Positions 23,184 to 42,369 of a stretch of DNA of 64,000 nucleotides are shown piece after piece. Position 1 is the stretch's first letter. Every line of letters begins with the position of its first letter. A program made the translations under genes and the position numbers. The DNA is from Gammaproteobacteria bacterium (GTDB taxonomy: Bacteria > Pseudomonadota > Gammaproteobacteria > Steroidobacterales > Woeseiaceae), in the NCBI GenBank assembly GCA_009937615.1, contig JAACFB010000008.1, forward strand, positions 1 to 64,000, in the 5' to 3' direction. Under the pieces are notes generated by a model that saw nothing but the letters and a program-made list of their open reading frames with translations, was not told the DNA's origin and did not search any database.

Positions 23184-23184
23184 G

Positions 23185-23661: not shown

Positions 23662-23670
23662 GAGACGACA

Positions 23671-26064
23671 ATGGCAACCCCGGCAGAAGAAATTAAGGAT
23701 CCCGTTGACGGCATCGGCTGCTCCAGGAAACGTAAAGAAGACGCGCGCTTTATTCAGGGCAAGGGCAATTACACGGACGACCTGAAATTACCCGGCACCG
23801 TGTTCGGTGCTTTTGTTCGCAGTCCCATCGCGCATGGGCGAGTCGTCTCGATCAACAAGGAGCCCGCACTCGCGCATCCCGGAGTGCTGGCCGTATTGAC
23901 GGCAGAGGACCTCGCACCGCTGAGCCTGCACTGGATGCCGACGCTGGCAGGTGACAAGCAGATGGTGCTCGCCGACGGCAAGGTCTGCTTCCAGCAGCAG
24001 GAAGTCGCCTTCGTGATCGCTGAAGACCGCTACGTCGCGGCAGACGCCATCGAACTCGTCGAAGTCGAATACGAGGAACTGCCGGTCATCATCGATGGAC
24101 GCAGGGCGATGGATGACGATGCGCCGGTTATTCGCGATGATCTTGAAGGGCAGACCGAGGGCGCTCATGGCGAGCGAATTCACGCCAACCATATTTTTCG
24201 CTGGGATGTCGGCGACGCGGAAGCGACGGACAAGGCTTTCGACACAGCCCCGATCACGGTCAGCGAGGACATCAGCTACCAGCGCGTACACCCTTGCCCG
24301 CTCGAGACCTGCGGCTGCGTATCCAACTTCGACAAAATCAGCGGCGAGCTAACCGTCTACCTGACCTCGCAGGCGCCGCACGTGGTCCGCACCGTCGTGT
24401 CGATGCTGTCGGGCATTGCAGAGAGTAAAGTCCACGTCATTGCACCGGACATCGGCGGCGGCTTCGGCAATAAGGTTGGCGTCTATCCGGGCTACGTGTG
24501 CGCGATTGTCGGTTCCATCGTTCTCGGTCGGCCGGTCAAGTGGATCGAAAGCCGGGTCGAGAACCTCGCCGCGACAGCATTCGCACGCGACTACCACATG
24601 CACGGGGAGATCGCGGCCGATGAAAACGGCCGCATCCAGGCACTTCGGGTCAACGTCCTGGCTGATCACGGCGCGTTCGATGCCTGCGCTGACCCGTCCA
24701 AGTTTCCGGCCGGCCTGTTCAGCATCGTCACAGGTTCTTACGACATACCGTCGGCATTCGCGCGGGTGGACGGCGTCTACAGCAACAAGGCGCCCGGCGG
24801 TGTCGCCTACCGCTGTTCGTTCCGCGTAACCGAAGCCTCCTACCTGATCGAGCGCATGATGGATGTGCTCGCGCACAAGCTCGGTGTCGATCCGGCCGAG
24901 ATCCGCTCGCGCAACTTCATCAAGGCCGAGCAGTTTCCCTACACATCGTGCCTGGGCTGGGAATATGACTCGGGCGATTACCATACTGCGATGAACCAGG
25001 CGCTCGAGGCTGTTGACTACGAGGGCCTGCGCAAGGAACAGGCCGAAAAACGGGCCAATGGCGACCTGATGGGCATTGGGGTCGCATTCTTCACCGAAAT
25101 CGTCGGGGCGGGCCCCACCAAGAACTGCGACATCCTCGGCATCGGCATGATCGACAGCTGCGAGATTCGGGTCCACCCGACCGGCAGCGTGATTGCCCGG
25201 CTCGGCACCAAGTCGCAGGGCCAGGGTCACGAAACGACTTATGCGCAGATCATAGCGACCGAACTTGGCATTCCCTCCGACGATATTCAGATCGAGGAAG
25301 GCGATACGGCAACCGCGCCGTACGGGCTCGGCACCTATGGTTCGCGCAGCACTCCGGTTGGCGGCGCTGCCGCGGCCCGCGCGGCGCGCAAGGTCAAAGA
25401 CAAGGCTCGCAAGATTGCAGCCGCGATGATGGAGGTCAGCCCCGCCGATCTTGACTGGGATACGGACCGTTTTATTGTCAAGGGATTGCCCGATCAGTCG
25501 CGCACGATCAAAGAGATTGCGATGGCCGCGTATCAGCATCTCCCCGAAGGCCTGGAGCAGGGTCTGGAAGCCGTGGAGTACTATGATCCGCCGAATTTCA
25601 CGTACCCCTTCGGAGCTTATCTGTGTGTCGTCGATATCGACCGCTACACGGGCGAGGTAAAGATACGGCGTTTCTATGCGCTCGACGATTGCGGCACGCG
25701 GATAAACCCGATGATCATCGAGGGCCAGGTGCACGGTGGCCTGACCGAAGCGCTTGCCATCGCTCTCGGGCAGGAACTCTCTTTCGACGAGGACGGCAAC
25801 ATTCTCAGCGCAAGTTTCATGGATTATTTCCTGCCCACTGCGGTCGAAACCCCGCACTGGGAGACGGATTTCACGGTGACGCCGTCACCGCATCATCCGA
25901 TCGGCGCCAAGGGTGTCGGCGAATCGCCGAACGTCGGCGGTGTCAGCGCAATTTCAAACGCCGTCATCGATGCGTTTGCGCACAAGGGCGTGACGCATTT
26001 ACAGATGCCGCACACGGCCTATTCGGTCTGGAAAACGATCAATGAACTCGGGATCAATCAGTAG
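23671..26064 (+). CDS. coxL: aerobic carbon monoxide dehydrogenase, molybdopterin large subunit, form I
   Basis: Form-I active-site motif AYRCSFR (nt 24805-24825, in frame); GGGFGNKVGVYPGY; GAKGVGESPNVGGVSAISNAVIDA. Confidence 0.93.
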   Translation: MATPAEEIKDPVDGIGCSRKRKEDARFIQGKGNYTDDLKLPGTVFGAFVRSPIAHGRVVSINKEPALAHPGVLAVLTAEDLAPLSLHWMPTLAGDKQMVLADGKVCFQQQEVAFVIAEDRYVAADAIELVEVEYEELPVIIDGRRAMDDDAPVIRDDLEGQTEGAHGERIHANHIFRWDVGDAEATDKAFDTAPITVSEDISYQRVHPCPLETCGCVSNFDKISGELTVYLTSQAPHVVRTVVSMLSGIAESKVHVIAPDIGGGFGNKVGVYPGYVCAIVGSIVLGRPVKWIESRVENLAATAFARDYHMHGEIAADENGRIQALRVNVLADHGAFDACADPSKFPAGLFSIVTGSYDIPSAFARVDGVYSNKAPGGVAYRCSFRVTEASYLIERMMDVLAHKLGVDPAEIRSRNFIKAEQFPYTSCLGWEYDSGDYHTAMNQALEAVDYEGLRKEQAEKRANGDLMGIGVAFFTEIVGAGPTKNCDILGIGMIDSCEIRVHPTGSVIARLGTKSQGQGHETTYAQIIATELGIPSDDIQIEEGDTATAPYGLGTYGSRSTPVGGAAAARAARKVKDKARKIAAAMMEVSPADLDWDTDRFIVKGLPDQSRTIKEIAMAAYQHLPEGLEQGLEAVEYYDPPNFTYPFGAYLCVVDIDRYTGEVKIRRFYALDDCGTRINPMIIEGQVHGGLTEALAIALGQELSFDEDGNILSASFMDYFLPTAVETPHWETDFTVTPSPHHPIGAKGVGESPNVGGVSAISNAVIDAFAHKGVTHLQMPHTAYSVWKTINELGINQ

Positions 26065-26655
26065 ATGCAGGTAAAACTCGAGAAAAAGTTCGCACTGGAC
26101 GCGCCGGTTGATGCTGCGTGGAGCGTGTTGAATGACATTTATGCGCTCGCCGAGTGCATGCCTGGAGCGAGCATTACCGAGCAAACCGGTGATAATCAGT
26201 ACACCGGAGCGGTCAGTGTCAAAGTAGGGCCCGTGCAGTCGGCGTTCGCGGGCACGATCGACATTATCGAAGTGGATCAGTCGGCACACACGCTGTCGCT
26301 GAGTGCGAAGGGAAAGGACAAGTCCGGCACGTCGAACGCCGCGATGCAGCTGACGGCGTCGGTCTCTGCCGGCTCGGGCGGCGGCTGTGAGCTGGTCGGC
26401 AACTCCGAAATCAAGGTCATGGGCAAGATGGCAAATTTCGGCGCCCGCATGATTAAGAGCGTAGCCGATCAACTCATCGATCAGTTCCTGGCCAATTTCT
26501 CTAACCGGGTACTGGCTGCCGGCGAGGGTGAGGCTGCGGCGGCGGCGGCCGAGCGCGTCGCTGAACAGCCCCAGGCGCTCAATGCGTTTGCGCTGCTGTG
26601 GAGCATGATCAAGGCATTTTTCCGCCGGCTCTTTGGCGGCAAGGGTACGTCTTAA
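26065..26655 (+). CDS. coxG: CoxG-like SRPBCC family protein
   Basis: MQVKLEKKFALDAPVDAAWSVLNDIYALAECMPGASITEQ; ATG immediately follows coxL stop (TAGATG). Confidence 0.88.
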   Translation: MQVKLEKKFALDAPVDAAWSVLNDIYALAECMPGASITEQTGDNQYTGAVSVKVGPVQSAFAGTIDIIEVDQSAHTLSLSAKGKDKSGTSNAAMQLTASVSAGSGGGCELVGNSEIKVMGKMANFGARMIKSVADQLIDQFLANFSNRVLAAGEGEAAAAAAERVAEQPQALNAFALLWSMIKAFFRRLFGGKGTS

Positions 26656-26664
26656 CGGCTGAGC

Positions 26665-27543
26665 ATGGATACGCGGACCGGGTTCCAGGCGCGGCTTGCC
26701 GCTGCGGGCTACATCGCAGAGCCGGCTCTCGCATCGGTCCTGGAGCTACTGCAGGCTCTTGGGCGCCCCCTGCTGGTCGAGGGCGATGCCGGTGTCGGTA
26801 AGACCGAGATTGCCAAAGCCCTTGCCCGGGTTTTCGACACACAGCTGATTCGGCTCCAGTGCTACGAAGGCCTCGACGCAAGTTCGGCAGTTTACGAGTG
26901 GGACTATCAGCGCCAGCTGCTGGCGATCAAGATCCGCGAACACGAAGACCTGCCGGCCGAGCAGACGGAGCGGCACATATTCAGCGAAACATATTTGCTG
27001 AAACGCCCGCTGCTCAAAGCGATCACGGAACCTGAGCCCTGCGTGCTGCTGATCGATGAAATCGACCGCGCAGACGATGAATTTGAAGCGTACCTGCTCG
27101 AGGTGCTCTCCGACTTCCAGATCAGCATTCCCGAGCTTGGCACGATCGAGGCTCTGAGCAAGCCGTTCGTCGTGCTGACTTCCAACGGCACTCGGGACAT
27201 TAGCGACGCACTGCGGCGCCGCTGTCTCTATTACTACCTCGAGTATCCGGACTTCGACAAGGAACTGCGCATTGTGAAGGCGCACCTGCCGGACATGGGC
27301 AACAAGCTTGCGCGCCAGGTTGTCTCGTTCGTGCAGTCCCTGCGCGAGTTCGATCTGCGCAAGACACCGGGGATTGCCGAGACGCTCGACTGGGCGACCG
27401 CGATACTGCAGCTCGATGTCACCGATCTGAACGATGATCCGGAGGCGATCAGGCAATCGCTGGTCTGCGTTCTCAAGACCCGGGAAGACTGCGCAGCCAT
27501 CAGCGACCTCGACGTAGACCGGCTGATTGCGAGCAGCGCGTGA
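26665..27543 (+). CDS. coxD: CoxD-like MoxR-family AAA+ ATPase
   Basis: GRPLLVEGDAGVGKTEIAKALARVFDTQLIRLQCYEGLDASSAVYEWDYQRQLL; CVLLIDEIDRADDEFEAYLLEVLSDFQI. Confidence 0.92.
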   Translation: MDTRTGFQARLAAAGYIAEPALASVLELLQALGRPLLVEGDAGVGKTEIAKALARVFDTQLIRLQCYEGLDASSAVYEWDYQRQLLAIKIREHEDLPAEQTERHIFSETYLLKRPLLKAITEPEPCVLLIDEIDRADDEFEAYLLEVLSDFQISIPELGTIEALSKPFVVLTSNGTRDISDALRRRCLYYYLEYPDFDKELRIVKAHLPDMGNKLARQVVSFVQSLREFDLRKTPGIAETLDWATAILQLDVTDLNDDPEAIRQSLVCVLKTREDCAAISDLDVDRLIASSA

Positions 27544-28712
27544 ACACTGCCCTGGCACCAATCGATGCAGCGGACCGGTTGACCCGGCGCGTGGTTGGTT
27601 TCCAGGTTTTTCTGCGAGGACACGGATTCCAGGGTGGTATTCCCGAGGCCGTCGATGCCCTGATGCTCGCGCGTTACGTGGACATTACGGACAAGCGCCG
27701 GCTCCGGGCAAGCTTGCGCAGCCTGCTGTGCGGCGGCCACGGTGACTGGACCCGGTTCGACGACCTTTTCGATGCCTACTGGCTGCCGCCGAATCGTCGC
27801 ATCCTGCGCGCGGCAACGGGCCCGGCCAGCGGGCGCAGGAAAACGGCGGGCTCGGATACGACCAGGACCAGTGGTCTGCTCGGCGACGTGCGCCAGGGGG
27901 CCGGCGATGCGAGTAATGTCGCCGGAGACAGTGCCGTCCAGGGCGGCGCCAGCAGCGAAGAGTCCCTGGCAAGCAAGGATTTTCGGCTGCTGTCTTCAGA
28001 CGGTGAGCTGCAGGAGATCGAACGCCTGATCGATCGTCTGGCGGCGCGCATGCGCCGGCGAATCGTCCGCCGGCAAAGAATCGCGAAATCCGGCCGTCAT
28101 TTGCACCTCAGGCGAACGCTGCGGAACAGCCTCCAGTTCGGCGGTGTGCCGCTGCAGCTAAGCTACCGGCGCCGCCGCCACAAGCCACCGCAGCTCGTGC
28201 TGCTGCTGGACGTCAGCCGTTCGATGAGCATCTACACTTATATGCTGTTGCGATTCACGCGTGCCGTCGTGCTCGGCTTTCGGCAGGCGGACGCGTTCGT
28301 GTTCCATACTCGCCTCGTTTCGGTCACTGATGCACTGCAGGAACAGAACATGGAGCGGATGCGGGATCGCCTGATGCTGCTCTCGTCGGGTTGGTCCGGC
28401 GGTACGCGCATCGGTGAATCGATCCGGAGTTTCAATGACCAGTTCGCCGGGCAACTCGTAAGCCGCAAAAGCGTGGTCATGGTTGTCAGCGACGGTTTTG
28501 ACACCGGCGAGCCGGCGCTGTTGGGAAAGGAAATGCAGCGGCTGCAATCCCGTGCTCGGCGAGTGGTCTGGCTGAATCCGCTGCTGGGCCGGCTCGGCTA
28601 CGAACCCACGGCAACGGGCATGACGGCGGCATTGCCGTGGGTGGATTTGTTTGCGCCGGCGCATAATCTCGAAAGCCTGCTTGCACTCGAACCTGAACTG
28701 GTGCGGCTGTAG
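27540..28712 (+). CDS. coxE: CoxE-like von Willebrand factor A domain protein
   Basis: MIDAS motif DVSRSMS in PQLVLLLDVSRSMSIYTYMLLRFTRAVVLGFRQADAFVFHTRL; 4-nt overlap with coxD. Confidence 0.9.
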   Translation: MNTALAPIDAADRLTRRVVGFQVFLRGHGFQGGIPEAVDALMLARYVDITDKRRLRASLRSLLCGGHGDWTRFDDLFDAYWLPPNRRILRAATGPASGRRKTAGSDTTRTSGLLGDVRQGAGDASNVAGDSAVQGGASSEESLASKDFRLLSSDGELQEIERLIDRLAARMRRRIVRRQRIAKSGRHLHLRRTLRNSLQFGGVPLQLSYRRRRHKPPQLVLLLDVSRSMSIYTYMLLRFTRAVVLGFRQADAFVFHTRLVSVTDALQEQNMERMRDRLMLLSSGWSGGTRIGESIRSFNDQFAGQLVSRKSVVMVVSDGFDTGEPALLGKEMQRLQSRARRVVWLNPLLGRLGYEPTATGMTAALPWVDLFAPAHNLESLLALEPELVRL

Positions 28713-28738
28713 GCGCGTGTTGCGGAGGACTCCTTGAA

Positions 28739-29560
28739 ATGAGCATGCATGACATCGAAAAAGTCATCGACAAAAAGTCGCGTGAAGGGAGTGCGTACGT
28801 GATTGCGACCGTGGTCCGCACCGAGGCGCCTACCTCGGCGAAAGCCGGTGATCGCGCGATCGTCGACGAGACCGGTATTGTCGCTGGCTGGGTTGGCGGC
28901 GGTTGCGCGCTGCCCGCGGTAACCCGCAATGCGGCCGAGGCGATACGCGACGGCCGCACCCGTCTGATCCGGATCAGCCGTGACCTTGATTCGCTGGAAA
29001 GCGGTATCATGGGCTACCCGATGACCTGCCAGAGTGGCGGGACCCTGGACATTTTCATCGAGCCTGTGATGCCGAAAGATCGACTCGTCGTCGTTGGAAA
29101 AACCGCGATCGCACGCGCGCTGTGCGGCCTTGCTGCGCGGGTCGGATTCGACGTCATCGTCGCCGCGCCAGGCGGCAGGCGCGAAGACTTCGTTGATGCG
29201 CGAGACTGGCTGGATGATCTAGACGACGTGGCGGGGCTGAAGCCGGCCCCGGCGGCGGTTGTCGTTGCAACACAGGGTTCCGGCGATGCGCGCGGCCTCG
29301 AGGCGGCGCTGTCCTCCGGGGCCGGCTACGTCGGGCTCATCGCGAGCCCGAAGAAGAGTGCGCGGCTCAAGGAGACACTGAGCAAGCGGGGCCACGACGC
29401 GGCGGCGATCGATGCCATTGATGCGCCCGCGGGCGTTTACATTGGTGCGGTTACGCCGGAGGAGGTTGCCGTATCCATACTGGCTGAACTCGTGCAGCGC
29501 CGGCGTCTGAGTAATGACGAGCAGCGGGCGGCCGGCGATGGAGAATCGCGAGTTAGCTGA
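28739..29560 (+). CDS. coxF: XdhC/CoxF-family Mo-cofactor maturation protein
   Basis: VVRTEAPTSAKAGDRAIVDETGIVAGWVGGGCALPAVTRNAAEAIRDGRTRLIRI; YVGLIASPKKSARLKETLSKRG. Confidence 0.87.
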   Translation: MSMHDIEKVIDKKSREGSAYVIATVVRTEAPTSAKAGDRAIVDETGIVAGWVGGGCALPAVTRNAAEAIRDGRTRLIRISRDLDSLESGIMGYPMTCQSGGTLDIFIEPVMPKDRLVVVGKTAIARALCGLAARVGFDVIVAAPGGRREDFVDARDWLDDLDDVAGLKPAPAAVVVATQGSGDARGLEAALSSGAGYVGLIASPKKSARLKETLSKRGHDAAAIDAIDAPAGVYIGAVTPEEVAVSILAELVQRRRLSNDEQRAAGDGESRVS

Positions 29561-29628
29561 ACGCGCAACAGCCGCCGCCATGCCGTGGCGCGCCGCGTTA
29601 GATTTTGCCGACACATCAGGAGCTGACG

Positions 29629-31482
29629 ATGGGTCAGAACGACGACGATAAGCCGAATACGATTAGCCGGCGGGAGTTCGTAAAGGGCGCGGGCGCAAGC
29701 GCCGCGGCGCTGGGCGGCGTGGCCTCCGTAACCTCCGATGCGGCACGGGCCCAGCAGAACCCTTACCAGGTGCCCGAGGAATGGGACCTCGAAGCCGATG
29801 TTGTGGTGATTGGCTCCGGGCCGACCGGACTGCCGGCTGCAATTCGTGCTCGCGACGCAGGCGCATCCGTAATCATTGTCGAGGCGAACTATGACGTAGG
29901 CGGCCACGGCCTGATGAACGGCGGCACGATTCAGCTCGGGGGCGGTACCAAACTACAGAAGAAATACGGCATCGAGGACTCACCCGACACGATGTTCAGG
30001 GACCTTACGGACTGGTCCGTCGTTGAGACCAACGGCATGCCCGATTACCGTTTTAACGATCGTGCGGTGCAACGGGCGCTGGCGGACAACAGCGCGGCAG
30101 CCTTCGATTTCATGGAGGAAAACGGCGTCAGATTTGAAGATATACCGCCGTCGACGGAAGGCGCGCATGCGACCGGCATCTCGGCCCCGCGGGCACACGA
30201 GGTGACCTGGAACGGAATCCAGGGCGCCGAGGGACCGCGTGGCGGGGGCGGTACCGGCATATACCGAACGCTCGAGGTCAGCGCCCGCGACAAGGGTGTC
30301 AGGTTTCTTCTGAACTACCACATGGACGTCATTTTCCGCGAGTCCCCTAATGGTGGACGGGTGCTTGGCGTACAGGCCGGATACACGCCGCGTTTTCTGC
30401 CCGGTGAATCCACGCCGATGAAGAGCTTCCATTCCAAAGGCAACGTCGATCTCACTCAACCGCATGTCACCGTGAAGGCGAAACAGGCTATCGTGATCGG
30501 CACGGGCGGCAGCACGGGCAACGTAAACTTCCGGCGGATTTTCGACCCCCGGATAACCGAGGTCTACCAGTTGGCGGCGGGCCCCTATTCGGATCAGGAT
30601 GCCAGTGGTGAGATGGCTGCCATGGCGATCGGGGCTTCGCTCTGGGGTACCGCGAACCAGTCTCTGGAACGCAACGGCTACCTGCGGAAGCGGCCGATCA
30701 TCGGTTGCCAGTACACGTACCTCTACTACACTCCCGACAGTATCCTGTTTCCGTTCGTTCGTGCATCTGGGCTGAGGGTGCGGTCCTGGGACAGTCTCGT
30801 ACTGGTCAACCAGGTCGGCAAACGTTTTTATAACGAGGAGGCCGGCAGCTGGCCCTACGGGACCCACCACGGGTTTCTCGACCCCTATGTGCAGGGCGAC
30901 TGGCGCAACGCGCGCCGGATAAAGTACGACCCGCAGAATTTCCTTGATGCGGCGCTGGCACCGAACGAAGGCTCGGAGCCACCGGATTACGCCGCCGGGC
31001 CGGTGTGGGCGATCTTTGATGCCGATGCGGTGCCTCGGGAGCGGTGGGATCTGTCACCGCCGGCTACCGATCCGCTGTACTTTTTCAGCGATCAAACGCT
31101 GGCCGGCCTGGCAAAGAAGATCAAAGCCAACCCCTATCAGAAACCGGACATGCCGCCTGCCAATCTCGAAGCGACGATCGAACGCTATAACGGGTTCGTC
31201 GACGCGGGCAGTGATCCCGACTTCGAGCGCCCCAATCTAAAGTACAAGCTCGAGAAGCCGCCTTTTTATGCCGCCTGGGCGACGCCCGTTGTACACGACT
31301 GTTACACCGGCCTGCGCATCAACATGCAGTGCCAGGTCATGGATATGCATGGGCAGGTGATACAGGGGCTTTACTGCGGTGGTGAATCGGCCGGCGGTTC
31401 CAGTCAGCATGGCCAGGGCCGCTGCGTGACCCAGGGCTATATTGCCGGCGGTCATGCCGTCAAGGAGCCGAGCTGGGGTTGA
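29629..31482 (+). CDS. Tat-exported FAD-dependent flavoprotein (fumarate reductase/succinate dehydrogenase flavoprotein or 3-ketosteroid dehydrogenase-like fold)
   Basis: Tat signal NTISRREFVKGAGASAAALGGVASVTSDAARA; ADVVVIGSGPTGLPAAIRARDAGASVIIVEANYDVGGHG; C-terminal GLYCGGESAGGSSQHGQGRCVTQGYIAGGHAV; start at MGQNDDDK after AGGAG. Confidence 0.88.
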   Translation: MGQNDDDKPNTISRREFVKGAGASAAALGGVASVTSDAARAQQNPYQVPEEWDLEADVVVIGSGPTGLPAAIRARDAGASVIIVEANYDVGGHGLMNGGTIQLGGGTKLQKKYGIEDSPDTMFRDLTDWSVVETNGMPDYRFNDRAVQRALADNSAAAFDFMEENGVRFEDIPPSTEGAHATGISAPRAHEVTWNGIQGAEGPRGGGGTGIYRTLEVSARDKGVRFLLNYHMDVIFRESPNGGRVLGVQAGYTPRFLPGESTPMKSFHSKGNVDLTQPHVTVKAKQAIVIGTGGSTGNVNFRRIFDPRITEVYQLAAGPYSDQDASGEMAAMAIGASLWGTANQSLERNGYLRKRPIIGCQYTYLYYTPDSILFPFVRASGLRVRSWDSLVLVNQVGKRFYNEEAGSWPYGTHHGFLDPYVQGDWRNARRIKYDPQNFLDAALAPNEGSEPPDYAAGPVWAIFDADAVPRERWDLSPPATDPLYFFSDQTLAGLAKKIKANPYQKPDMPPANLEATIERYNGFVDAGSDPDFERPNLKYKLEKPPFYAAWATPVVHDCYTGLRINMQCQVMDMHGQVIQGLYCGGESAGGSSQHGQGRCVTQGYIAGGHAVKEPSWG

Positions 31483-31522: not shown

Positions 31523-33031
31523 TTACTGCCCTGGCGGCGGCGGCGCGTTGGGATCCATCGCATCCCGAGACGTCGTCGTGGCGCCGAGCTGTTCAAGCAG
31601 CGCTGCCGTAGTCTGGTGGTATCCGTACAGGCCGCGGTAACGCAATACCGGGCTGATCCCCGATGCCATGCTCCAGGGCGTCTCGCCGTAATTGTCTTTG
31701 ACGTTGATATCGGCACCGTTGTCTGCAAGATAACGGACGACCGGATCGGCGCCCGTGAAAGCCGCCATGTGCATGGCAGTCTGCCCATCCTCGTTCCTGG
31801 CATTGAGATCGATACCCATTGCGACAACCGCCTTGACCGCCTGGTAGGCTCGCTCTATGTCCTGGTCGTTGGCCTCGTTGCCGCCCTTGAATGCGCAGGC
31901 ACCCGTGCAGGCGGCCCTGGCGGCGGCCATGAGCGATGTTGTGCCGCCTTTGGCGACAATGTTTTGATCGGCACCGTGTGCTTTGAATAGCTGCATGAGT
32001 TCGGTATCGGCGGATATCGCGGCGAGCAGGAACGGTGTCGCGCCCACCATGTCGAACGGGCTGCCGTCGGGCCCCAGGCGATGACTCCTGGCGATCTGCG
32101 CGTTCGGATCGGCACCCGCCTCGAGCAGGGCTTCGGCCAGGCCATGCATGTTATCGGGTAGCCGCCTGTAGACCGGGTCGTAGCGCACGCCTCTCAACGC
32201 GGCGAGGCCATTGGCGACGGAATAGTGCAGCGCAGTGATCCCGTTGGCATCCTCAACGTCAGCGTCGGCTCCCGACTTCAGCAGCAGTAAAGACAGGGGC
32301 TCATGCCCGCTGGCCGCAGCCACGAGAAGCGTATTGCCGTGTTCGGGGGCGGTTTCATTCGGATCTGCGCCTGCATCGAGCAGGGCGAGGGCCGATTCGA
32401 GGTCACCGGAGCGGGCGGCATAGAGCAAGGGCGTGTAATTACCCACCGATCTGGCCGCGATGTCAGCGCCATTTTCGATGAGGATGCCGGTTACGTCACC
32501 GTGACCTTCCGCGGCGGCCCACATCAGCGCGGTCTGGTTCTTCCGGGATTCCCGTGAGTTCGGATCCGCGCCCCCGGCGAGCAGGGCCTCGACTGCTGCC
32601 GCAGCGCCGGTCCTTGCGCACCTCATGAGCACAGACTCGCCGTTCCACAGCGCAGCATTGGCGTCAGCCCCGGCGCTCAACAAAACCCGTACCATCGCCT
32701 CACTGCGGTTCGTGCAGGCCAGGTGCAGTGGCGCGACACCATACTCGTTGGCCGAATCGGCATTGGCTCCAGCCGCCAGGAGGTGGTTTGCCATGTCCAG
32801 GTCGTCGTGGTGCGCGGCCCAGTGCAATGCGGTGGTTCCGTCAGCTTCCGAGGCATTGATGTCGACCGACTGCTCGATCATGTTCGATACTGACCCGCCG
32901 TCACCGCTTCGTGCCGCGTCGATCAGGCGCAAATCATCGCTAGCAGGCAAAGGGGCTGACGCGAGTATCAGCAGCGCCGTCAGCCCGGCCCTGAGCCGGC
33001 CAGTACTATGGTTGCATGGTTGACCGTACAT
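31523..33031 (-). CDS. exported ankyrin-repeat protein (cassette copy A)
   Basis: Signal-peptide-like GRLRAGLTALLILASAPLPASDD followed by multiple ~33-aa ANK repeats (DGTTALHWAAHHDDLDMANHLLAAGANADSANEYGVAPLHLACTNRSEAMVRVLLSAGADAN...); start at MYGQPCNHS. Confidence 0.9.
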   Translation of the reverse strand: MYGQPCNHSTGRLRAGLTALLILASAPLPASDDLRLIDAARSGDGGSVSNMIEQSVDINASEADGTTALHWAAHHDDLDMANHLLAAGANADSANEYGVAPLHLACTNRSEAMVRVLLSAGADANAALWNGESVLMRCARTGAAAAVEALLAGGADPNSRESRKNQTALMWAAAEGHGDVTGILIENGADIAARSVGNYTPLLYAARSGDLESALALLDAGADPNETAPEHGNTLLVAAASGHEPLSLLLLKSGADADVEDANGITALHYSVANGLAALRGVRYDPVYRRLPDNMHGLAEALLEAGADPNAQIARSHRLGPDGSPFDMVGATPFLLAAISADTELMQLFKAHGADQNIVAKGGTTSLMAAARAACTGACAFKGGNEANDQDIERAYQAVKAVVAMGIDLNARNEDGQTAMHMAAFTGADPVVRYLADNGADINVKDNYGETPWSMASGISPVLRYRGLYGYHQTTAALLEQLGATTTSRDAMDPNAPPPPGQ

Positions 33032-33047
33032 ATCGGTTCGAATGCGC

Positions 33048-34388
33048 CTAGACCGACAGCAAATCAACTTTGCCGGTGCTGTCGCCGAATCGGTCCGCCT
33101 CGATGCCGAGCTTGTCCATGATTGTCAGGTACAGGTTCGAAATCGGCGTATCGTCCGGATAACGGATATGCCGGCCTCCCTGCAGCTGGCCCGTGCCGCC
33201 GCCCAGCAGCAGGATGGGCAGGTTCTGCAGCAAATGCTCATTGCCATCGCTCATCGCGCTTCCGTACATGATGATCATGTTGTCCAGCAGCGAGCCATCG
33301 ATGTCCGGCGTCGCCCGCAGCTTGTCGAGGTAATAGGTAAACAGGTTGGAGTGATAAAGGTCGATTCGTGCAATCTTCTCGAGATTGACCGGGTCGTTGC
33401 GGTGATGGGACAGCGAGTGGTGAACATCGGGAATGCCGATTTCCCGGTAGGTCCGGTTGCTTTGCTCAGGGCCTGTCATGAACGTGATCATTCGGGTCAT
33501 GTCGGTCTGGAACGCGAGGACCTGCAGGTCGAACATCAGTTTCAGGTGGTCGGCGAACTCCGACGGGACGCCGGCAGGCCGCTCTACGGACGGAAACTCG
33601 CGCGCGGTCTGCTGTTCGGCCATCTGGATACGGCGTTCGACATCCCGCATGCCGTCGAGATATTCGGTCAACCGCGCTTTGTCCTCGGGTCCGACCTTGC
33701 TCATAAGACGCGCAGCGGCATCGGTTACTGAATCGAGTATGCTGCGTTCCTTCTCGATCCGGGCCAGCCGTACAGCTGGATCGGTGCTGCTGCTGTCACC
33801 AAACAGTCGTTCGAAGACAGCGCGGGGCCTGTATTCGATCGGTAATGGCGTGGACTCGGAACGCCAGCTGAGCGTCATCCGGTAGGCACAGCTCCAGCCC
33901 TTTTCACAGCTGCCGACGACGTCGGTGTTATGCAGGCCGAGTTCCAGCGAAGCGAGCTGCGTATGCTGACCCAGCTCCCTGGCAATGATCTGATCGATAG
34001 ATGTGCCGACACGTCCCTCGCGGAGCGGATGAACGCCCGTTAGAAATACGCCGCCCGCGCGTTCATGGGGTGCGGATTCACCCTCGCCGGGCAGCGCGTC
34101 GCCGGCACTGTTTTGCATGCCGCTGAGCACGAGCATCTGGTCTCGGTAAGGTGCCAGCGGCGCCAGTGTCGCCGGCAAGTCGAATGCCGTACCGGTAGCC
34201 CCGGGCGTCCAGAACTCCATGTTCATACCGTTCGGAACATACACGATGGAAAACCGGCGTGCAGCCTTGCTCATCTCATTGAGTGACGCAAAGGCCGGAA
34301 ACATCGCGTCGAGAAACGGAAGGGCGATGGCGGCGCCGGCGCCGCGCAAAAAGCTGCGCCGGGGCATGGATTTCTTAAATATCATCAT
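33048..34388 (-). CDS. DUF1552 / HXXSHH-motif protein with Tat-like signal (cassette copy A)
   Basis: MPRRSFLRGAGAAIALPFLDAMFPAFA; HSLSHH motif in IPDVHHSLSHHRNDPVNLEKIARIDLYHSNLFTYYLDKL (nt 33402-33419); MIMYGSAMSDGNEHLLQNLPILLLGGGTGQLQGGRHI. Confidence 0.92.
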   Translation of the reverse strand: MMIFKKSMPRRSFLRGAGAAIALPFLDAMFPAFASLNEMSKAARRFSIVYVPNGMNMEFWTPGATGTAFDLPATLAPLAPYRDQMLVLSGMQNSAGDALPGEGESAPHERAGGVFLTGVHPLREGRVGTSIDQIIARELGQHTQLASLELGLHNTDVVGSCEKGWSCAYRMTLSWRSESTPLPIEYRPRAVFERLFGDSSSTDPAVRLARIEKERSILDSVTDAAARLMSKVGPEDKARLTEYLDGMRDVERRIQMAEQQTAREFPSVERPAGVPSEFADHLKLMFDLQVLAFQTDMTRMITFMTGPEQSNRTYREIGIPDVHHSLSHHRNDPVNLEKIARIDLYHSNLFTYYLDKLRATPDIDGSLLDNMIIMYGSAMSDGNEHLLQNLPILLLGGGTGQLQGGRHIRYPDDTPISNLYLTIMDKLGIEADRFGDSTGKVDLLSV

Positions 34389-36786
34389 GGCTGTGTGCCG
34401 TCCTCATCTGAAATGGTGTGCTTTCCACGATGGCCATAATCATGGAAGACAACCGGTAGTCGTCTGGTGCTGACTGACGCATGATAGCGCGCATCACGGG
34501 TGCGTCGCGGTGGTCTATCCCGCGGCCAAGCGCGTAGGTGAGAAGTTTCTCGATAGCGGTGAGGATAAAGTCTTCCTGCCGCTTTTCGATGAGTACGTGT
34601 CGTAGCTCGACGGGCCCGTTGAACGGTGTGCCGTCAGGCAGCGCGCCAGACGAGTCGATGGCCGAACTCGATGCCGCATCGATGGTGCGCCATTTGCCGA
34701 TCGCGTCGTAGTTTTCGAGGGCGAAGCCGAGCGGATCCATCACCTTGTGGCAGCTCGCACAGACCGGGTTGGCCCGGTGCTGCTCCATCTGCTGACGCAT
34801 GTTCAATACCTTGCCCTCGTCATTCTCCTCGCGAAGGCCCGGTACGTTCGCTGGTGGCGGCGGTGGTGGTGCGCCAAGGATATTCTCCAGCACCCATTTG
34901 CCACGAATCGTCGGCGCGGTCCGGTTCGGGTAGGAAGTGACCGTGAGGATGCTTCCCTGGCCCAGCAGGCCGCCGCGATTCGGATCGGCCAGGGGCACTT
35001 TCCGGAAATGGCTGCCATACACATTCGGGATCTCGTAGTGTCTTGCGAGTCGTTCATTGACGAACGTGTAATCGGCATCAAGCAGTTCCAGCAGCGGCCG
35101 GTCATTCCGCAAAATGTACTCGAAGAACAACTCGGTCTCGGTCTGGAACGCCTGGATCAGGTTATCGTCGAAGTACGGGAACAGATCGGTGTTAGGCGCC
35201 ACCGCGTTCAGTTTCCTCAACTGCAACCACTGCGCCGCGAAATTGCTGACCAGGGTGTCGGAGCGGGGGTCCTCCAGCATTCGCCGCACCTGCTGCTCGA
35301 GGGTCCCGGGATGCGAGAGCCGGCCCGCCTCGGCGAGGCCGAGGAGTTCCTCGTCGGGCAGCGTGCTCCACAGGAAGAACGACAGCTGCGTGGCGAGCTC
35401 CAGGTCCGTTATGGCAAAGATGTCGTCCGGCTCTACCTTGTCCGGTTGTTCGACCACGAGAAACAGGAACTCCGGGCCCGCGAGCATGCGTTCGATAGCG
35501 AGGCCGACACCTTGCTCAAATCCGCTGTCTGCGCCCTGCTGGTAGAACAGCATGAGTTCGTCCAGTTCCAGCTCGGTTGGCGGCCGGCGGTAGGCCCGGT
35601 GCGCGAGATCGGACAGGATGCGCCTGGCACAGGCCTCGTCTTCACGCTGCGACGGCTGGCAGATCAGGATCTTCTCCCGGCTGGCTGTCTGGCTGATGCC
35701 CCTGACGTTGTAGGGACCGCCCACGGCGACGGTGTGTACCGCCGGAACGCCGCCCTTGTACTGAGCATAATCGTAGAGAGTATGGCGCGGAGTGAGCGGT
35801 TCTTCAGGAATCGTGTTTTCGTCGAGGAAGGTTACGGTGAGTTTTCGGGTCCCGGCTTTCGCGCTGAAACGGGCCTGAAGAACTTCGTCGGCCGTCCGTT
35901 CGTAGAGTTCCTGTTCCACGTCACCCGCTTCGCCCGACGAAAAAATCCCCGCCGACTCGCCGTGTACCTCGCCACCGATCGTGATGGTCTTTATGCGTTC
36001 TCCGTCGAGTCGCAGGTCGAACTGGTGGGGTTCGGTCAGTCCTCGTATGTATTCGCGCGAATTCCTTTGCAGCGTGACCTGGACAACGTATTCACCATCC
36101 AGCGGAAAATGATGCTGGACCGTAGTTCCACCGCGGGAACCGAAAGGCATCTCGTCGCCCATCCAGCCCGTCTGCATCAGGTAGCCGGATACGGTGTAAA
36201 TATCGAAAACCGGCTGCATCTCCGGTTCCCCCAGCGCCTGGCGGCGGACCTTTCGCGCTGCCGCGATATACTGTTCCGCAAGCAGCGGTGACAGCGTCAG
36301 CACATCGCCGATGTTGTCGAAGCCGAACATCGTGTCGTCCGCGGGCAGTATCGTGTCGTCGCGTATCTCGACCGCTAACAGGTCACGGACGGCATTGATG
36401 TATTCGCTGCGGTTCATGCGGCGTATAGAGGACCGGCCTGGCTGCGGCCGGACGCTGGCATAGGTGTCGAGCGCGGTTTCGAGATACCCGGCAAATTCGG
36501 CATAGGTGGAATCGTCGGGCCGCGGTACGCCGGCCGGCGGCATCGACTGGACCTTGAGTTTGCGCAAGACCTTTTCCCAGGTATCGGCGCCCGCCGCGAT
36601 ATCAGTGACACTCGCATGCTGCAGCGAAAGCCCGGCGGTCAGCAGGGCATCATTATGGCAAGTGACGCAATAGCGATTGACCGTAGCCTGCAGCGGCAGG
36701 CTATCGGCCGTGTTTGCAACTGCCGTTTGCGCTGCGGAGCATGCGGTTACCAACAAAGCAGCGATGTGTGGCCAGCGTCGTGACAT
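34375..36786 (-). CDS. DUF1587/1595/1592/1588/1585 planctomycete-type cytochrome protein, di-haem (cassette copy A)
   Basis: CxxCH motifs NRYCVTCHNDALLTAGLSL and NPVCASCHKVMDPLGFALENYDAIGKWR; RSSIRRMNRSEYINAVRDLL; EFLFLVVEQPDKVEPDDIFAITDLELATQLSFFLWSTLPDEELL; signal peptide-like N-terminus. Confidence 0.93.
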   Translation of the reverse strand: MSRRWPHIAALLVTACSAAQTAVANTADSLPLQATVNRYCVTCHNDALLTAGLSLQHASVTDIAAGADTWEKVLRKLKVQSMPPAGVPRPDDSTYAEFAGYLETALDTYASVRPQPGRSSIRRMNRSEYINAVRDLLAVEIRDDTILPADDTMFGFDNIGDVLTLSPLLAEQYIAAARKVRRQALGEPEMQPVFDIYTVSGYLMQTGWMGDEMPFGSRGGTTVQHHFPLDGEYVVQVTLQRNSREYIRGLTEPHQFDLRLDGERIKTITIGGEVHGESAGIFSSGEAGDVEQELYERTADEVLQARFSAKAGTRKLTVTFLDENTIPEEPLTPRHTLYDYAQYKGGVPAVHTVAVGGPYNVRGISQTASREKILICQPSQREDEACARRILSDLAHRAYRRPPTELELDELMLFYQQGADSGFEQGVGLAIERMLAGPEFLFLVVEQPDKVEPDDIFAITDLELATQLSFFLWSTLPDEELLGLAEAGRLSHPGTLEQQVRRMLEDPRSDTLVSNFAAQWLQLRKLNAVAPNTDLFPYFDDNLIQAFQTETELFFEYILRNDRPLLELLDADYTFVNERLARHYEIPNVYGSHFRKVPLADPNRGGLLGQGSILTVTSYPNRTAPTIRGKWVLENILGAPPPPPPANVPGLREENDEGKVLNMRQQMEQHRANPVCASCHKVMDPLGFALENYDAIGKWRTIDAASSSAIDSSGALPDGTPFNGPVELRHVLIEKRQEDFILTAIEKLLTYALGRGIDHRDAPVMRAIMRQSAPDDYRLSSMIMAIVESTPFQMRTAHSHDDI

Positions 36787-36859
36787 GGAGCCGACACCCC
36801 AGTATTCAATCTGGACGGAAGATGCCGTAGTTTATCGCGCCGGCGCTCTGCCACCTAGT

Positions 36860-36895
36860 GCCAAGCTGTTTCATAACATCTGAAACGGATTTGGC
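36860..36895. promoter_or_regulatory. interrupted dyad in the divergent intergenic region between the two cassette copies; candidate shared operator
   Basis: GCCAA gct GTTTCA taacatc TGAAAC ggat TTGGC; a TATAAT hexamer lies at 36924-36929. Confidence 0.4.
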
Positions 36896-36989
36896 ATGGA
36901 TGCGGATATCGAAATATGCTGGATATAATCTAGGGGTTGGCAGCGACGGGTTCTGTCGTCGCGCTATATCCGGTAACGGTAACGGCTGC

Positions 36990-39410
36990 ATGATGACGAG
37001 TAGATATTTGGCGCTCTGGACCGGTATCGCAGTCGTTGCGTACAGCAGCCTGTGTGGTGCGCAGCGTCAACCCGATCATTCTCAATACGGCGAAACCCTC
37101 AATCAGTACTGCGTTACCTGCCATAACAGCGCGCTCATGATTGCCGGACTGTCGCTGCACGATATCGACATTGGCAACGTCAGTGGCAGCGCGGATACCT
37201 GGGAAAAGGTTCTGCGCAAGCTGCGCGCCAGGGCGATGCCGCCTGAAGGCGTCCCGCGGCCGCCTGACGCCACTTACGCATCGATCGCGGGCTACCTCGA
37301 GTCCGAGTTGAACCGGAGCGCCCGGGAGAATCCGAAGCCGGGCCGGCCGTCGATTCGCCGTCTAAACCGAACGGAATACGTGAATTCGATAAGAGAGTTA
37401 CTCTCCATCGACGTAGACGGGAACACATTGCTCCCGCCCGACGATGCGATGTTCGGCTTCGACAATATCGGGACTGTACTGACTCTGTCACCATTACTGA
37501 TCGAGCGTTACATTGCCGCAGCTCGCAAGGTAAGGCTGCAGGCGTTGGGAAGCCCCGACATCGACGCAAAATACGAGTATTACAGCGTCCCGGAAGGGCT
37601 GCTGCAGAACGATCGCATGGGCGAAGACCTGCCCTTCGGATCCCGAGGCGGCATCGCGGTTCGTCACCACTTTCCGATGGATGGCGAATACGTCATACAG
37701 CTCAGGCTGCAAAGAAACTATCGCGACTATATTCGCGGAATGGTCAACAAAGAACATCAGCTCGATGTGCGAATGAACGACGCGCGTATCGCGCTTTTAA
37801 CCATCGGCGGTGAGCGGCACGGCCGTTCGTCCGGGCTGTATTCGACGTCTGCACAAGGCGACGTCAGCCAGGAGGAGTACGAACGCTATGCAGACCAGGC
37901 GCTGGAGGTTCGCTTCTTTGCCAAGGCGGGTCAGCAGCTGATCACGGCGACCTTTCCAAAAGAGACCGTCATAGCGGAGGGCCCGCTCTACCCGGAACAC
38001 ACGGTCTATGACTACACCCAGTACAAGGGAGGCAGTCCTGGACTACGGACGCTTGCGATCGGCGGTCCGTTTGATGCACGCGGTCCCGGCGAAACGGCCA
38101 GTCGTGCGAAGGTCCTGATCTGTCGGCCGACCCCCGAAAATGACGAGGCCTGTGCCCGACGCATCCTCACACGGCTCGCGCGCAGCGCCTATCGCCGACC
38201 CCCAACAGCAAAAGAGCTCGGCGTGCTGCTGGAGTTCTACAGAGAAGGGCAGAGCACGAGTGATTTTGAAGCGGGCATCGGCCTGGCCCTGGAGCGCATA
38301 CTGGCCGGGCCGGAATTTCTGTTCATTACCGAAACTGTGCCGAAGGACGCGGAGCCAGGCGAGCTGTATCAGCTGTCGGATCTCGAGCTGGCCAGCCGCC
38401 TGTCCTTTTTTCTCTGGAGCCAGATCCCTGATGACGAGCTCTTGAGCGTTGCCGAAGCAGGGCATCTTCGGGACCCGGTCGTTTTGGAACAGCAGGTTCG
38501 CCGCATGCTCGGGGACCCCCGTTCCAGGGCGCTGGTAGAAAATTTCGCGGCGCAGTGGCTTACGCTCGGAAAGCTCAACGTGGCGGCGCCGGACACTGAA
38601 ATCTTTCCTTATTTTGACGAAAATCTTAGGCAGGCCTTCAGGAAGGAAACCGAGTTGTTCATCGAGCACGTCCTTCGGCAGGAGCGTCCATTACTCGAAC
38701 TCCTCACGGCGGACTACACGTTCGTCAACGAACGTCTCGCGAGGCATTACCAGATACCAGGCGTTTACGGGAATCATTTCCGCAAGGTCACGCTGCCCGA
38801 TGAGACCCGTGGCGGCCTGCTGGGGCAGGGCAGCATTCTTACGGTTACGTCCTATGCCAATCGCACCGCCCCGACAATTCGCGGCAAATGGATTCTGGAA
38901 AATATTCTCGGCACGCCTCCGCCTCCGCCTCCGGCGAATGTCCCGGGGCTCCGGGAAAAGAATGAAGATGGTGTCATACTGACCATGCGCGAGCGCATGG
39001 AACAGCATCGTGCAAACCCGGTCTGTGCCAGTTGTCACAAGGCGATGGACCCGTTGGGATTCGCGCTCGAAAACTATGACGCGATTGGCAAATGGCGAAC
39101 GGTAGACGGAGCGTCCGCCGCGCGCATCGATTCGACCGGCGCATTACCCGACGGCACTACGTTTGAAGGGCCGCTCGAATTGCGTGCCGTGCTGATGGAA
39201 AAACGCCAGGATGACTTCATTTACACTGCCGTCGAAAAACTACTTACCTATGCGCTTGGACGCGAGGTCGTGCATACGGACGCGCCGTTCATCCGCTCCA
39301 TTATCCGCGAGGCAACTCCCGCGGAACATAGCTTGCCGTCTCTGATCATGGCGGTTGTATCGAGTACGCCGTATCAGATGAGGAGGGTATCGAACCGTGA
39401 TGATATTTAA
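36990..39410 (+). CDS. DUF1587/1595/1592/1588/1585 planctomycete-type cytochrome protein, di-haem (cassette copy B)
   Basis: CxxCH motifs NQYCVTCHNSALMIAGLSL (nt 37110-37124) and NPVCASCHKAMDPLGFALENYDAIGKWR (nt 39024-39038); collinear with copy A along its length; start at MMTSRYLALWTG. Confidence 0.93.
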   Translation: MMTSRYLALWTGIAVVAYSSLCGAQRQPDHSQYGETLNQYCVTCHNSALMIAGLSLHDIDIGNVSGSADTWEKVLRKLRARAMPPEGVPRPPDATYASIAGYLESELNRSARENPKPGRPSIRRLNRTEYVNSIRELLSIDVDGNTLLPPDDAMFGFDNIGTVLTLSPLLIERYIAAARKVRLQALGSPDIDAKYEYYSVPEGLLQNDRMGEDLPFGSRGGIAVRHHFPMDGEYVIQLRLQRNYRDYIRGMVNKEHQLDVRMNDARIALLTIGGERHGRSSGLYSTSAQGDVSQEEYERYADQALEVRFFAKAGQQLITATFPKETVIAEGPLYPEHTVYDYTQYKGGSPGLRTLAIGGPFDARGPGETASRAKVLICRPTPENDEACARRILTRLARSAYRRPPTAKELGVLLEFYREGQSTSDFEAGIGLALERILAGPEFLFITETVPKDAEPGELYQLSDLELASRLSFFLWSQIPDDELLSVAEAGHLRDPVVLEQQVRRMLGDPRSRALVENFAAQWLTLGKLNVAAPDTEIFPYFDENLRQAFRKETELFIEHVLRQERPLLELLTADYTFVNERLARHYQIPGVYGNHFRKVTLPDETRGGLLGQGSILTVTSYANRTAPTIRGKWILENILGTPPPPPPANVPGLREKNEDGVILTMRERMEQHRANPVCASCHKAMDPLGFALENYDAIGKWRTVDGASAARIDSTGALPDGTTFEGPLELRAVLMEKRQDDFIYTAVEKLLTYALGREVVHTDAPFIRSIIREATPAEHSLPSLIMAVVSSTPYQMRRVSNRDDI

Positions 39411-40731
39411 GAAATCCATTCCCCGCCGGACGTTTTTGCGGGGTGCCGGGGCTGCGGTAGCGCTGCCGTTGCTGGATGCTATGTTTCCGGCACTCGCATC
39501 CGTCGAGGGTTCGTCGGTTCCGCGCAGGTTTTCGATTGTCTATGCTCCGAACGGAATGAACATGGCGAAGTGGACACCCGCTGCTACGGGTAAGGCATTC
39601 GAGTTAACGCCTACGCTGCAACCGTTCGCACCGTACAGGGAACAGATGCTGGTCGTGAGCGGGCTGGCGAATAAAGCGGGTTATCCGTTGCCCGGCGAGG
39701 GCGAATCGGCGCCGCATGAGCGAGCGGGGGGTGTTTTTCTAACCGGAGTCCATCCCAGGAGAGAAGGCCATACCGGCATTTCCATTGATCAGATTATTGC
39801 CAGGGAGCTCGGCAAGAAGACTCAGCTTGCGTCGCTGGAACTCGGACTGCACAGCAGCGACGCTGTTGGCCAGTGCGAAAAGGGTTGGAGCTGTGCCTAT
39901 ATCAACACGCTGTCATGGCGGAACCCGACCACTCCGCTACCCATAGAAAACAGGCCACGAGCCGTTTTTGAGCGGCTCTTCGGCGAGAGCGCCGACCCGG
40001 CATTGCGAATGGAGCGCCTGCAAGATCAGAAAAGCATTCTCGATTCGGTTACCGATGCAGCGTCCGATCTGATGCGGACCGTAAGTTACGAGGACCGGGT
40101 CAGATTGTCCGAATATCTCGATGGCATGCGTGAGATCGAGCGCCGAATTCAGATGGCCGAACAGCAGTCCGACAAGGAGCTGCCGACGGCAAATCCGCCT
40201 ACCGGTATTCCGAAAGAATTTTCGGAGCACCTCAAGCTGATGTTCGACCTCAATGTTCTGGCATTCCAGACGGACATGACGCGCATGACGACGCTGATGA
40301 CCGGGCCGGAACAGAGTAATCGCACCTACCCCGAAATCGGTGTGCCTGACGTACACCACTCCCTGTCGCATCATCAGGGCAATCCGGTCAGTCTCGAGAA
40401 GCTGTACAAGATCAATCTGTACCATTCGGAGCTGATGACGTACTACCTGGACAGGCTGAGCTCAACGCCGGATTACGATGGTTCCCTGCTCGACAACATG
40501 ATGATCATGTACGGCGGGTCTATCAGCGACGGCAACGATCATTTGCTTCAGGATTTGCCGATCCTGTTGCTCGGAGGCGGGTCCGGCAAGCTGCAGGGCG
40601 GGCGACACATTCGATTCAGTGACGATACTCCCGTGACTAACCTGTACCTGGCAATACTCGACAATCTCGACATCGAGCTAGAGCAGTTTGGCGACAGCAC
40701 CGGGACACTGGATCTTGCTTCAATTGCTTGA
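39397..40731 (+). CDS. DUF1552 / HXXSHH-motif protein with Tat-like signal (cassette copy B)
   Basis: IPRRTFLRGAGAAVALPLLDAMFPALA; HSLSHH at nt 40357-40374 in VPDVHHSLSHHQGNPVSLEKLYKINLYHSELMTYYLDRL; GTG start 39397 or ATG 39400. Confidence 0.92.
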   Translation: MMIFKKSIPRRTFLRGAGAAVALPLLDAMFPALASVEGSSVPRRFSIVYAPNGMNMAKWTPAATGKAFELTPTLQPFAPYREQMLVVSGLANKAGYPLPGEGESAPHERAGGVFLTGVHPRREGHTGISIDQIIARELGKKTQLASLELGLHSSDAVGQCEKGWSCAYINTLSWRNPTTPLPIENRPRAVFERLFGESADPALRMERLQDQKSILDSVTDAASDLMRTVSYEDRVRLSEYLDGMREIERRIQMAEQQSDKELPTANPPTGIPKEFSEHLKLMFDLNVLAFQTDMTRMTTLMTGPEQSNRTYPEIGVPDVHHSLSHHQGNPVSLEKLYKINLYHSELMTYYLDRLSSTPDYDGSLLDNMMIMYGGSISDGNDHLLQDLPILLLGGGSGKLQGGRHIRFSDDTPVTNLYLAILDNLDIELEQFGDSTGTLDLASIA

Positions 40732-40767
40732 AGGGAAAAATGCACAACGGCTTCTTCGGGGGAGAAC

Positions 40768-42369
40768 ATGAAACAGGACTTGCGTAGCAGCTTGATCGTC
40801 ATTTTCCTGCTGGCGATGCCGTTAACGGTGGCCGCAACGGAAGACGCGCGGCTGATTGAAGCTGCCAAAGACGGTGATCGCGAGAAAGTGCTATTCCTGC
40901 TCGACTCTGCCGTGGACGTCAATGCTGCCAAGGCTGATGGTACATCGGCGCTTCACTATGCGGCGCATCGTGACGACCGCGAAATTGCAGGCGCCCTGAT
41001 GCAATCCGGTGCGAACGCAAATGCAGCAAATGACTATGGCGTCACGCCGCTGTCACTTGCCTGCACCAATCGCAGCGCTGACATGGTGGGCGCCCTGCTG
41101 GAAGGCGGGGCTGACCCGGACGCGAGACTATGGAACGGTGAGTCCGTGTTGATGACCTGCGCCCGAACCGGCACGGCCGACGCGGTAATGGCGCTGCTCG
41201 TCGCCGGAGCAGATCCCAACGTTGCGGAGTCCAGCCAGGGCCAGACAGCGCTGATGTGGGCTGCCAACGGGGGACATTCTGACATTGTCCAGATGCTGAT
41301 CGAGCACGGTGCGGACGTCGAGGCGACCACCAGCGCAACGGTCGACAGGGTGCCGAATACCTGCCGGATCTGCGAGTGGAAGCCGTCACCCGGAGGATTT
41401 ACGGCGCTGATGTTTGCGGCCCGATCCGGCGACCTGGAGACCGCCATGCTCCTGCTCGAAGCCGGAGCCGACATCGACGGGGCGACGGCGGAACACGGCA
41501 GTGCGCTGGTGGTTGCCAGCGCCAGCGGCCATGAAGAACTGGCGCTGTTTCTGCTGGCCGAGGGTGCAAATCCCGAATTACGCGATGAAAATGGCGTGAC
41601 GGCTCTTCATCATGCACACCAGAGTGGACTCGCCCGGATGCACGGCGTGACGTATGACCCGGTGTACCGCGTGCGGCCGAATAACATGCACAAGTTGGCC
41701 CGGGCACTGCTCGAGGGCGGCGCCGAGGCAAACGTGCAGATCGCAAAGAGCTACAAGGTGGGGCCTGCGATCCGCAGCAGCTGTGAGAGCGTGTCGGACA
41801 TGGTCGGCGCAACGCCCTTCTTCCTGGCAGCTATTTCGGCCGATACAACATTGCTGAATCTGTTGGCCGAGCACGGGGCCGATCCGGAGATCGGTACCAG
41901 CGATGGCACGACGCCGCTCATGGTTGCGGCGCGATCCGCCTGCACGGGACAAAATCAGGACGACAATCTCACCCTGGAAAAGAAAGAGCGGTCGCTGGTT
42001 GCCGTCAGGACGATCATCGAGATGGGGGTCGATATCAACGCGGTCAATGCCGACGGCGAGACGGCCATGCACAAGGCCGCATTTTCCGGAGCTGATAACG
42101 TCGTACGCTACCTCGCCGACAGCGGTGCCGAAATTGACCTCAAGACCAAAAGCGGCGAGACCCCGTGGAGCATGGCATCCGGAATCAGCCCGTCCTTACA
42201 GGGTCGCGGCGAATACGGCCTGCACGAGAGCACGGCAGCGCTGCTGATGACGCTCGGCGCGACAGCGATCACTCGAGAGGATATGAACGTGCCGGATGCC
42301 TACTCCAACTTCCTCGAGCGGGAGGTCAGCATCGATTACGAGAGCCTTACGGCGCAGCCCGACCAATAA
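40768..42369 (+). CDS. exported ankyrin-repeat protein (cassette copy B)
   Basis: Signal peptide MKQDLRSSLIVIFLLAMPLTVAATEDARLIEAAKDGD then ANK repeats (DGTSALHYAAHRDDREIAGALMQSGANANAANDYGVTPLSLACTNRSADMVGALLEGGADPD...). Confidence 0.92.
   Translation: MKQDLRSSLIVIFLLAMPLTVAATEDARLIEAAKDGDREKVLFLLDSAVDVNAAKADGTSALHYAAHRDDREIAGALMQSGANANAANDYGVTPLSLACTNRSADMVGALLEGGADPDARLWNGESVLMTCARTGTADAVMALLVAGADPNVAESSQGQTALMWAANGGHSDIVQMLIEHGADVEATTSATVDRVPNTCRICEWKPSPGGFTALMFAARSGDLETAMLLLEAGADIDGATAEHGSALVVASASGHEELALFLLAEGANPELRDENGVTALHHAHQSGLARMHGVTYDPVYRVRPNNMHKLARALLEGGAEANVQIAKSYKVGPAIRSSCESVSDMVGATPFFLAAISADTTLLNLLAEHGADPEIGTSDGTTPLMVAARSACTGQNQDDNLTLEKKERSLVAVRTIIEMGVDINAVNADGETAMHKAAFSGADNVVRYLADSGAEIDLKTKSGETPWSMASGISPSLQGRGEYGLHESTAALLMTLGATAITREDMNVPDAYSNFLEREVSIDYESLTAQPDQ

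Follow-up and report, generated by a model that had tools for sequence, protein, structure and literature searches.

A co-inherited and heavily paralogised gene triplet for a cytochrome, an HXXSHH protein and an ankyrin protein, all predicted to be exported, in uncultured Gammaproteobacteria and Acidobacteriota

The genes of a di-haem c-type cytochrome (C), a Tat-signal HXXSHH protein of the DUF1552 family (H) and an ankyrin-repeat protein (A) form a triplet that codes for a module predicted to be exported, is inherited as a unit and is heavily paralogised. This three-gene set is a real and widespread extension, apparently undescribed, of a known but uncharacterised C–H pair. Two copies, set A and set B, lie head to head in the window, the whole stretch of 64,000 nucleotides analysed here (contig JAACFB010000008.1 of a Woeseiaceae genome, positions 1 to 64,000), where the following features are found:

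29605 to 31482, plus strand: Tat-signal FAD_binding_2 flavoprotein of the flavocytochrome c / urocanate reductase family, adjoining set A in convergent orientation
31523 to 33031, minus strand: ankyrin-repeat protein A of set A (Ank_2, E 4e-56, and translation; the start is the best ATG)
33048 to 34388, minus strand: HXXSHH (DUF1552) protein H of set A (PF07586, E 5e-94; Tat signal PRRSFLRG)
34375 to 36786, minus strand: di-haem c-type cytochrome C of set A (PSCyt3/PSD2-5, i.e. DUF1587/1595/1592/1588/1585; two CxxCH)
36787 to 36989, no strand: divergent intergenic region of 203 bp between the two cytochrome genes
36990 to 39410, plus strand: di-haem c-type cytochrome C of set B (PSCyt3/PSD2-5 by Pfam; AlphaFold2 model with pLDDT 91.6)
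39397 to 40731, plus strand: HXXSHH (DUF1552) protein H of set B (Pfam E 1e-95; Tat signal PRRTFLRG; predicted fold sulfatase/alkaline-phosphatase-like)
40768 to 42369, plus strand: ankyrin-repeat protein A of set B (Ank_2, E 6e-61; hydrophobic N-terminal signal sequence)

The gene order outward from the 203-bp gap is C, H and A on both sides, with a 14-bp overlap of C and H in each set. ORF positions and Pfam domains bear out the head-to-head paralogous layout described in an earlier note on this DNA. The two sets share 63% (C), 72% (H) and 55% (A) amino acid identity, and Pfam recognises PSD3, PSD5, PSD4, PSCyt3 and PSD2 together with Cytochrome_CBB3 in both cytochromes. NCBIfam holds no model for C or H, and its type IV effector-like names for the ankyrin proteins were rejected as generic repeat matches far below cut-off. 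Export of all three products, also claimed earlier, is predicted from signals present in each of them, as judged by simple motif and hydrophobicity checks. The hydrophobic N-terminal signal sequence of the set A ankyrin protein is MYGQPCNHSTGRLRAGLTALLILASAPLPAS, and a crude test finds an N-terminal hydrophobic segment in the A protein of 97 of 102 cassettes. The 203-bp centre has one weak sigma-70-like site, at chance level; the search for a common promoter or operator there gave nothing above chance, and the search for unusual base composition was negative (GC 0.586-0.620, similar to the rest).

The genome from which the window comes (G000; 3.36 Mb, 94 contigs) encodes five HXXSHH proteins, five DUF1592 cytochromes and five ankyrin homologues arranged as five triplets, and all its 22 Ank_2 stretches fall inside the five cassette ankyrin genes. 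By our own arithmetic (roughly 1.5e-4 per gene), random placement would practically never bring the starts of all five ankyrin genes to within ~200 bp downstream of the five HXXSHH genes. The triplet at all five HXXSHH loci and the confinement of Ank_2 to their ankyrin genes thus make a pattern far beyond chance. Two small genes with one CxxCH each are found directly upstream of one cassette of this genome (L017:6171-6852).

A scan with the five HXXSHH proteins of this genome gives 80 loci, mostly of Acidobacteriota MAGs and of Gamma- and Alphaproteobacteria, some MAG titles being surely mislabels like 'Klebsiella' for L100. The non-redundant collection comprises 102 distinct complete cassettes, mostly from Acidobacteriota and Gammaproteobacteria MAGs, and the C and H genes overlap or nearly so in most of them. 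The ankyrin gene accompanies 108 of the 122 HXXSHH copies with sufficient flanks. In the survey of gene positions it is most often downstream and co-directional (88), and less often upstream in divergent (16) or co-directional (6) orientation. Tandem ankyrin genes (two) lie behind a single cytochrome–HXXSHH pair in L173:3018-6603. All HXXSHH copies were inspected in G000 and in G406, G410 and G412, a non-random sample of genomes picked for holding close relatives, and 44 of 49 copies have an ankyrin partner (5/5 in G000, 13/13 in G412, 17/18 in G406 and 9/13 in G410). By coordinate reading, all 82 Ank_2 stretches of G406 belong to cassette ankyrin genes, if an additional copy that immediately follows a cassette is included. 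The enrichment of ankyrin genes beside the C–H pair of other genomes, which had been proposed as a check, is enormous by these neighbour counts and Ank_2 mapping. The HXXSHH gene of L169 (G406) has no cytochrome or ankyrin partner detected nearby. HXXSHH copies number 18, 25, 35 and 43 in G406, G407, G408 and G411 (genomes of 3.2-6.5 Mb), an extreme expansion of paralogues.

The C–H part of the triplet has precedents in Planctomycetes and Verrucomicrobia (PMC5615132, PMC2754498), whose PSCyt3/PSD cytochromes are like C in Pfam domain set and have a DUF1552 gene adjacent. He et al. 2017 (PMC5615132) state that PSCyt3 genes usually adjoin one gene family of unknown function, and a DUF1552 protein appears in the gene list of an R. 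baltica stress study (RB9955; PMC2754498). The HXXSHH gene is directly downstream of the cytochrome gene here as in the known pair. The difference is a third, ankyrin gene that almost always accompanies one HXXSHH subclade, so that the cassettes are not two-gene units, whereas the main text of PMC5615132 makes no mention of ankyrin. The literature searched (open-access main texts) has no report linking PSCyt3/PSD cytochromes or DUF1552 to ankyrin proteins. Of the undescribed system proposed in the earlier note, the cytochrome–HXXSHH pair had thus been noted before (PMC5615132), and the ankyrin third member looks undescribed.

FastTree phylogenies of C, H and A from the 102 non-redundant cassettes, with 300 permutations as null, reveal a common history. 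Patristic distances correlate at 0.82 (C–H), 0.885 (C–A) and 0.80 (H–A) for a best permutation of 0.126, and the trees have in common 46-49 of 56-61 well supported splits (75-84%). Paralogues inside single genomes behave alike (r = 0.70-0.96 between C, H and A distances), so the proposed congruence of the three gene trees extends to the paralogues of one genome. The outcomes that the earlier note named as refuting its reading did not turn up.

The nearest relatives in each of the C, H and A trees are L161 (G406) and L179 (G412) for set A, and L160 (G406), L027 and L029 (G412) for set B. Sets A and B have each their own orthologues elsewhere, implying that the A/B split is older than this lineage, and a local duplication is ruled out since these orthologues occur separately in other genomes. 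The 'old, maintained duplication' suggested earlier stands as a paralogous, diverged triplet maintained over time, as the congruent trees indicate, and falls as a duplication in this lineage. The idea of two substrates or conditions served by the two sets fits, and does no more than fit, with their separate orthologues in other genomes. In G406, the one other genome where the layout of both sets was compared, A-type and B-type cassettes share a strand and are separated by ~20-25 kb instead of lying head to head. An empty insertion site was sought in sister species; the right-hand flanking gene (a DMT transporter) is found in them without synteny, so that no insertion point is definable.

We favour the hypothesis that C, H and A build a redox module of the periplasm that oxidises substrates, with specialised paralogues and with A as scaffold, and give this inferred mechanism a probability of about one half. 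H, which would be Tat-exported in a folded state and possibly with a metal, could bind or activate a specific substrate in the His-rich pocket of its sulfatase/phosphatase-like fold. C, with its His/Met class I N-terminal haem, central jelly-roll and second CxxCH at the carboxyl terminus, would take electrons from the substrate of H or, alternatively, from dedicated dehydrogenases (PQQ enzymes or the Tat flavoprotein next to set A, for example), and would pass them on to the respiratory chain. A, an exported scaffold in this view, would keep C and H in contact or aid their assembly, and different paralogous sets would serve different substrates.

The cytochrome has the DUF1587/1595/1592/1588/1585 architecture with haem-c motifs. 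Its first haem site is C41-xx-C44-H45 with invariant Met83, a class I-type arrangement, and the second is C679-xx-C682-H683 with invariant H673 just before it. Both CxxCH and Met83 are invariant among the aligned C proteins, and the C proteins of 97 of 102 cassettes have two CxxCH. The AlphaFold2 model of the set B protein has no full-length match in the PDB. Its jelly-roll segment resembles CBM35/36-type sugar-binding and C1q-like domains, weakly and with no match at E < 0.001.

The role of A is the first point at which another reading has to be weighed. HXXSHH copies without ankyrin gene are mostly on basal branches (L113, L114, L116, L148, L157-159, L104, L079/L089), and the presence or absence of the gene on the HXXSHH tree requires a minimum of five changes; an apparent 'loss' in L049 is a broken C gene with the ankyrin gene not absent. 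Since basal HXXSHH lineages have C without A, the ankyrin gene was probably recruited once to an older C–H pair and lost a few times later, in a sample without Planctomycetes and Verrucomicrobia. The basal, ankyrin-less L113, L114 and L116 adjoin open frames (1254-2232 aa) with partial-length matches to the cytochrome. The late arrival of A as an add-on agrees with a maturation or haem-protection helper of C in the periplasm, like AnkB or Cj1386, instead of a structural scaffold, C and H being then the ancestral working pair. Such a role has parallels in ankyrin proteins encoded beside haem catalases, AnkB/KatB of P. aeruginosa and Cj1386/KatA of C. jejuni, which are needed for catalase activity or carry haem to the enzyme (PMC11442138, PMC7567364). 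A is likewise encoded beside a haem protein in the cassettes inspected, and AnkB is periplasmic; Cj1386 is given as cytoplasmic in a review, and the partners of A differ, being a c-type cytochrome and an HXXSHH protein with one A per cassette. A is ~500-600 residues long and diverges in step with C and H in each paralogous set, whereas a general helper needs no dedicated copy in each cassette. Furthermore, the attachment of c-type haems is the job of the Ccm system. We therefore regard a helper function of A as rather unlikely.

The second point is the chemistry of H. An AlphaFold2 model of the set B protein (70 sequences; pLDDT 87.6) gives Foldseek hits to estrone sulfatase, LtaS, carrageenan sulfatase and YejM with a best E of 1.5e-5 and probability 1.00, at a TM of only ~0.39 and with a large rmsd. 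By this predicted structure, H shares the fold of the sulfatase/alkaline-phosphatase superfamily distantly. PDB sequence relatives were sought for H and C, and none was found. The invariant residues of H are R10-R11 (Tat), H107, D131-Q132, W174, R245, E248, T295-R296, H321, H325, D366 and H382, with R10-R11 and His107 each found in 70/70 sequences; H320, H326 and H404 are conserved at 92-98% and C160 and C166 at 88%. Helix 106-113 starts at H107 and runs into L-T-G, like the sulfatase C-x-P-S-R-x-x-x-L-T-G helix. In hhalign, used for residue register only as the local alignment itself is non-significant (P 0.11), His107 coincides with the Cys of sulfatases, and LLDN strand and carboxyl terminus line up as well. 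H thus resembles arylsulfatases, LtaS and YejM in predicted fold and in the LTG and LLDN-strand motifs but lacks two features by which sulfatases are defined as an enzyme family. The nucleophile (Cys/Ser formylglycine or Ser/Thr) appears to be absent, with His107 at its position, and P51-N52-G53 is found where strand 1 should carry the Asp metal ligands. The earlier description of a Tat-signal HXXSHH protein holds by Tat signal and Pfam family, and is corrected in that the protein has a predicted sulfatase/alkaline-phosphatase-like fold with an altered active site. DUF1501 (PF07394), also with a Tat signal, was rejected as the same family, its profile similarity to H being weak and C-terminal only (E 3e-4, probability 38%); DUF1501 is absent from G000, G406 and G412.

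The same fold matches to sulfatases, LtaS and YejM could mean that H is a working hydrolase or transferase acting on sulfated or phosphorylated glycans, while C would bind carbohydrate and serve as redox partner for the sugars set free. This glycan role of C follows a proposal for planctomycete-type cytochromes in Verrucomicrobia, where, according to PMC5615132, some PSCyt proteins carry CBMs and their genes neighbour sulfatases, the function being given there as unknown. The CBM35-like segment of C would suit this role. It is difficult to reconcile with the invariant His107 in place of the catalytic Cys/Ser and with the replacement of the strand-1 Asp pair, and sulfatases and glycoside hydrolases are not among the recurrent neighbour families scanned; hydrolysis by H seems improbable to us.

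Among the recurrent neighbours of the cassettes, PQQ-type dehydrogenases are encoded at 20 loci, NHL propellers at 12, and TonB-dependent receptors of two kinds at 15 and 12 loci; amidohydrolases, amidases and further enzymes are found at fewer. Neighbours differ between cassettes and so indicate no single substrate. In G406, 5 of 11 PQQ genes are near a cassette (within ~5 kb); the figures are 1 of 4 in G412, ~4 of ~50 in G410 and none in G000, hence their enrichment is modest and not general in this rough test, PQQ and TonB genes being common in such genomes. The most specific functional clue found is the linkage of set A to the Tat flavoprotein, which has no CxxCH of its own. Homologues with 70-75% identity adjoin set-A-type cassettes in L162 (G406) and L179 (G412), a linkage kept in three genomes, and the flavoprotein is a probable accessory of set A. 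A molybdenum hydroxylase cluster resembling coxM-S-L-G-D-E-F (window positions 22314-29560) lies directly upstream of the flavoprotein gene and set A.

That the triplet is a laterally spreading cluster, its genes linked by transfer and not by a common biochemical pathway, would suit the patchy distribution of HXXSHH genes (2/25 genomes of the genus sample, i.e. the own genome and one other, and 6/369 of the class sample) but is very hard to believe of a single-origin ankyrin gene kept through dozens of paralogues per genome and adjacent even when moved to another side or strand, which points to functional coupling.

The redox module with A as scaffold may tentatively be extended to a redox enzyme of a new class, periplasmic and built of three components, in which a sulfatase-fold protein with its nucleophile turned into His would act alongside a di-haem cytochrome of its own and an ankyrin protein exported as scaffold; uncultured bacteria would have up to ~40 versions of it per genome, each specific for a substrate. 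In uncultured Acidobacteriota and Gammaproteobacteria, a genome can have 13-43 HXXSHH genes, nearly always in the triplet where neighbours were checked. One co-evolving unit turns three families of 'unknown function' into a single testable system, and exported ankyrin proteins gain through the triplet a specific set of partners.
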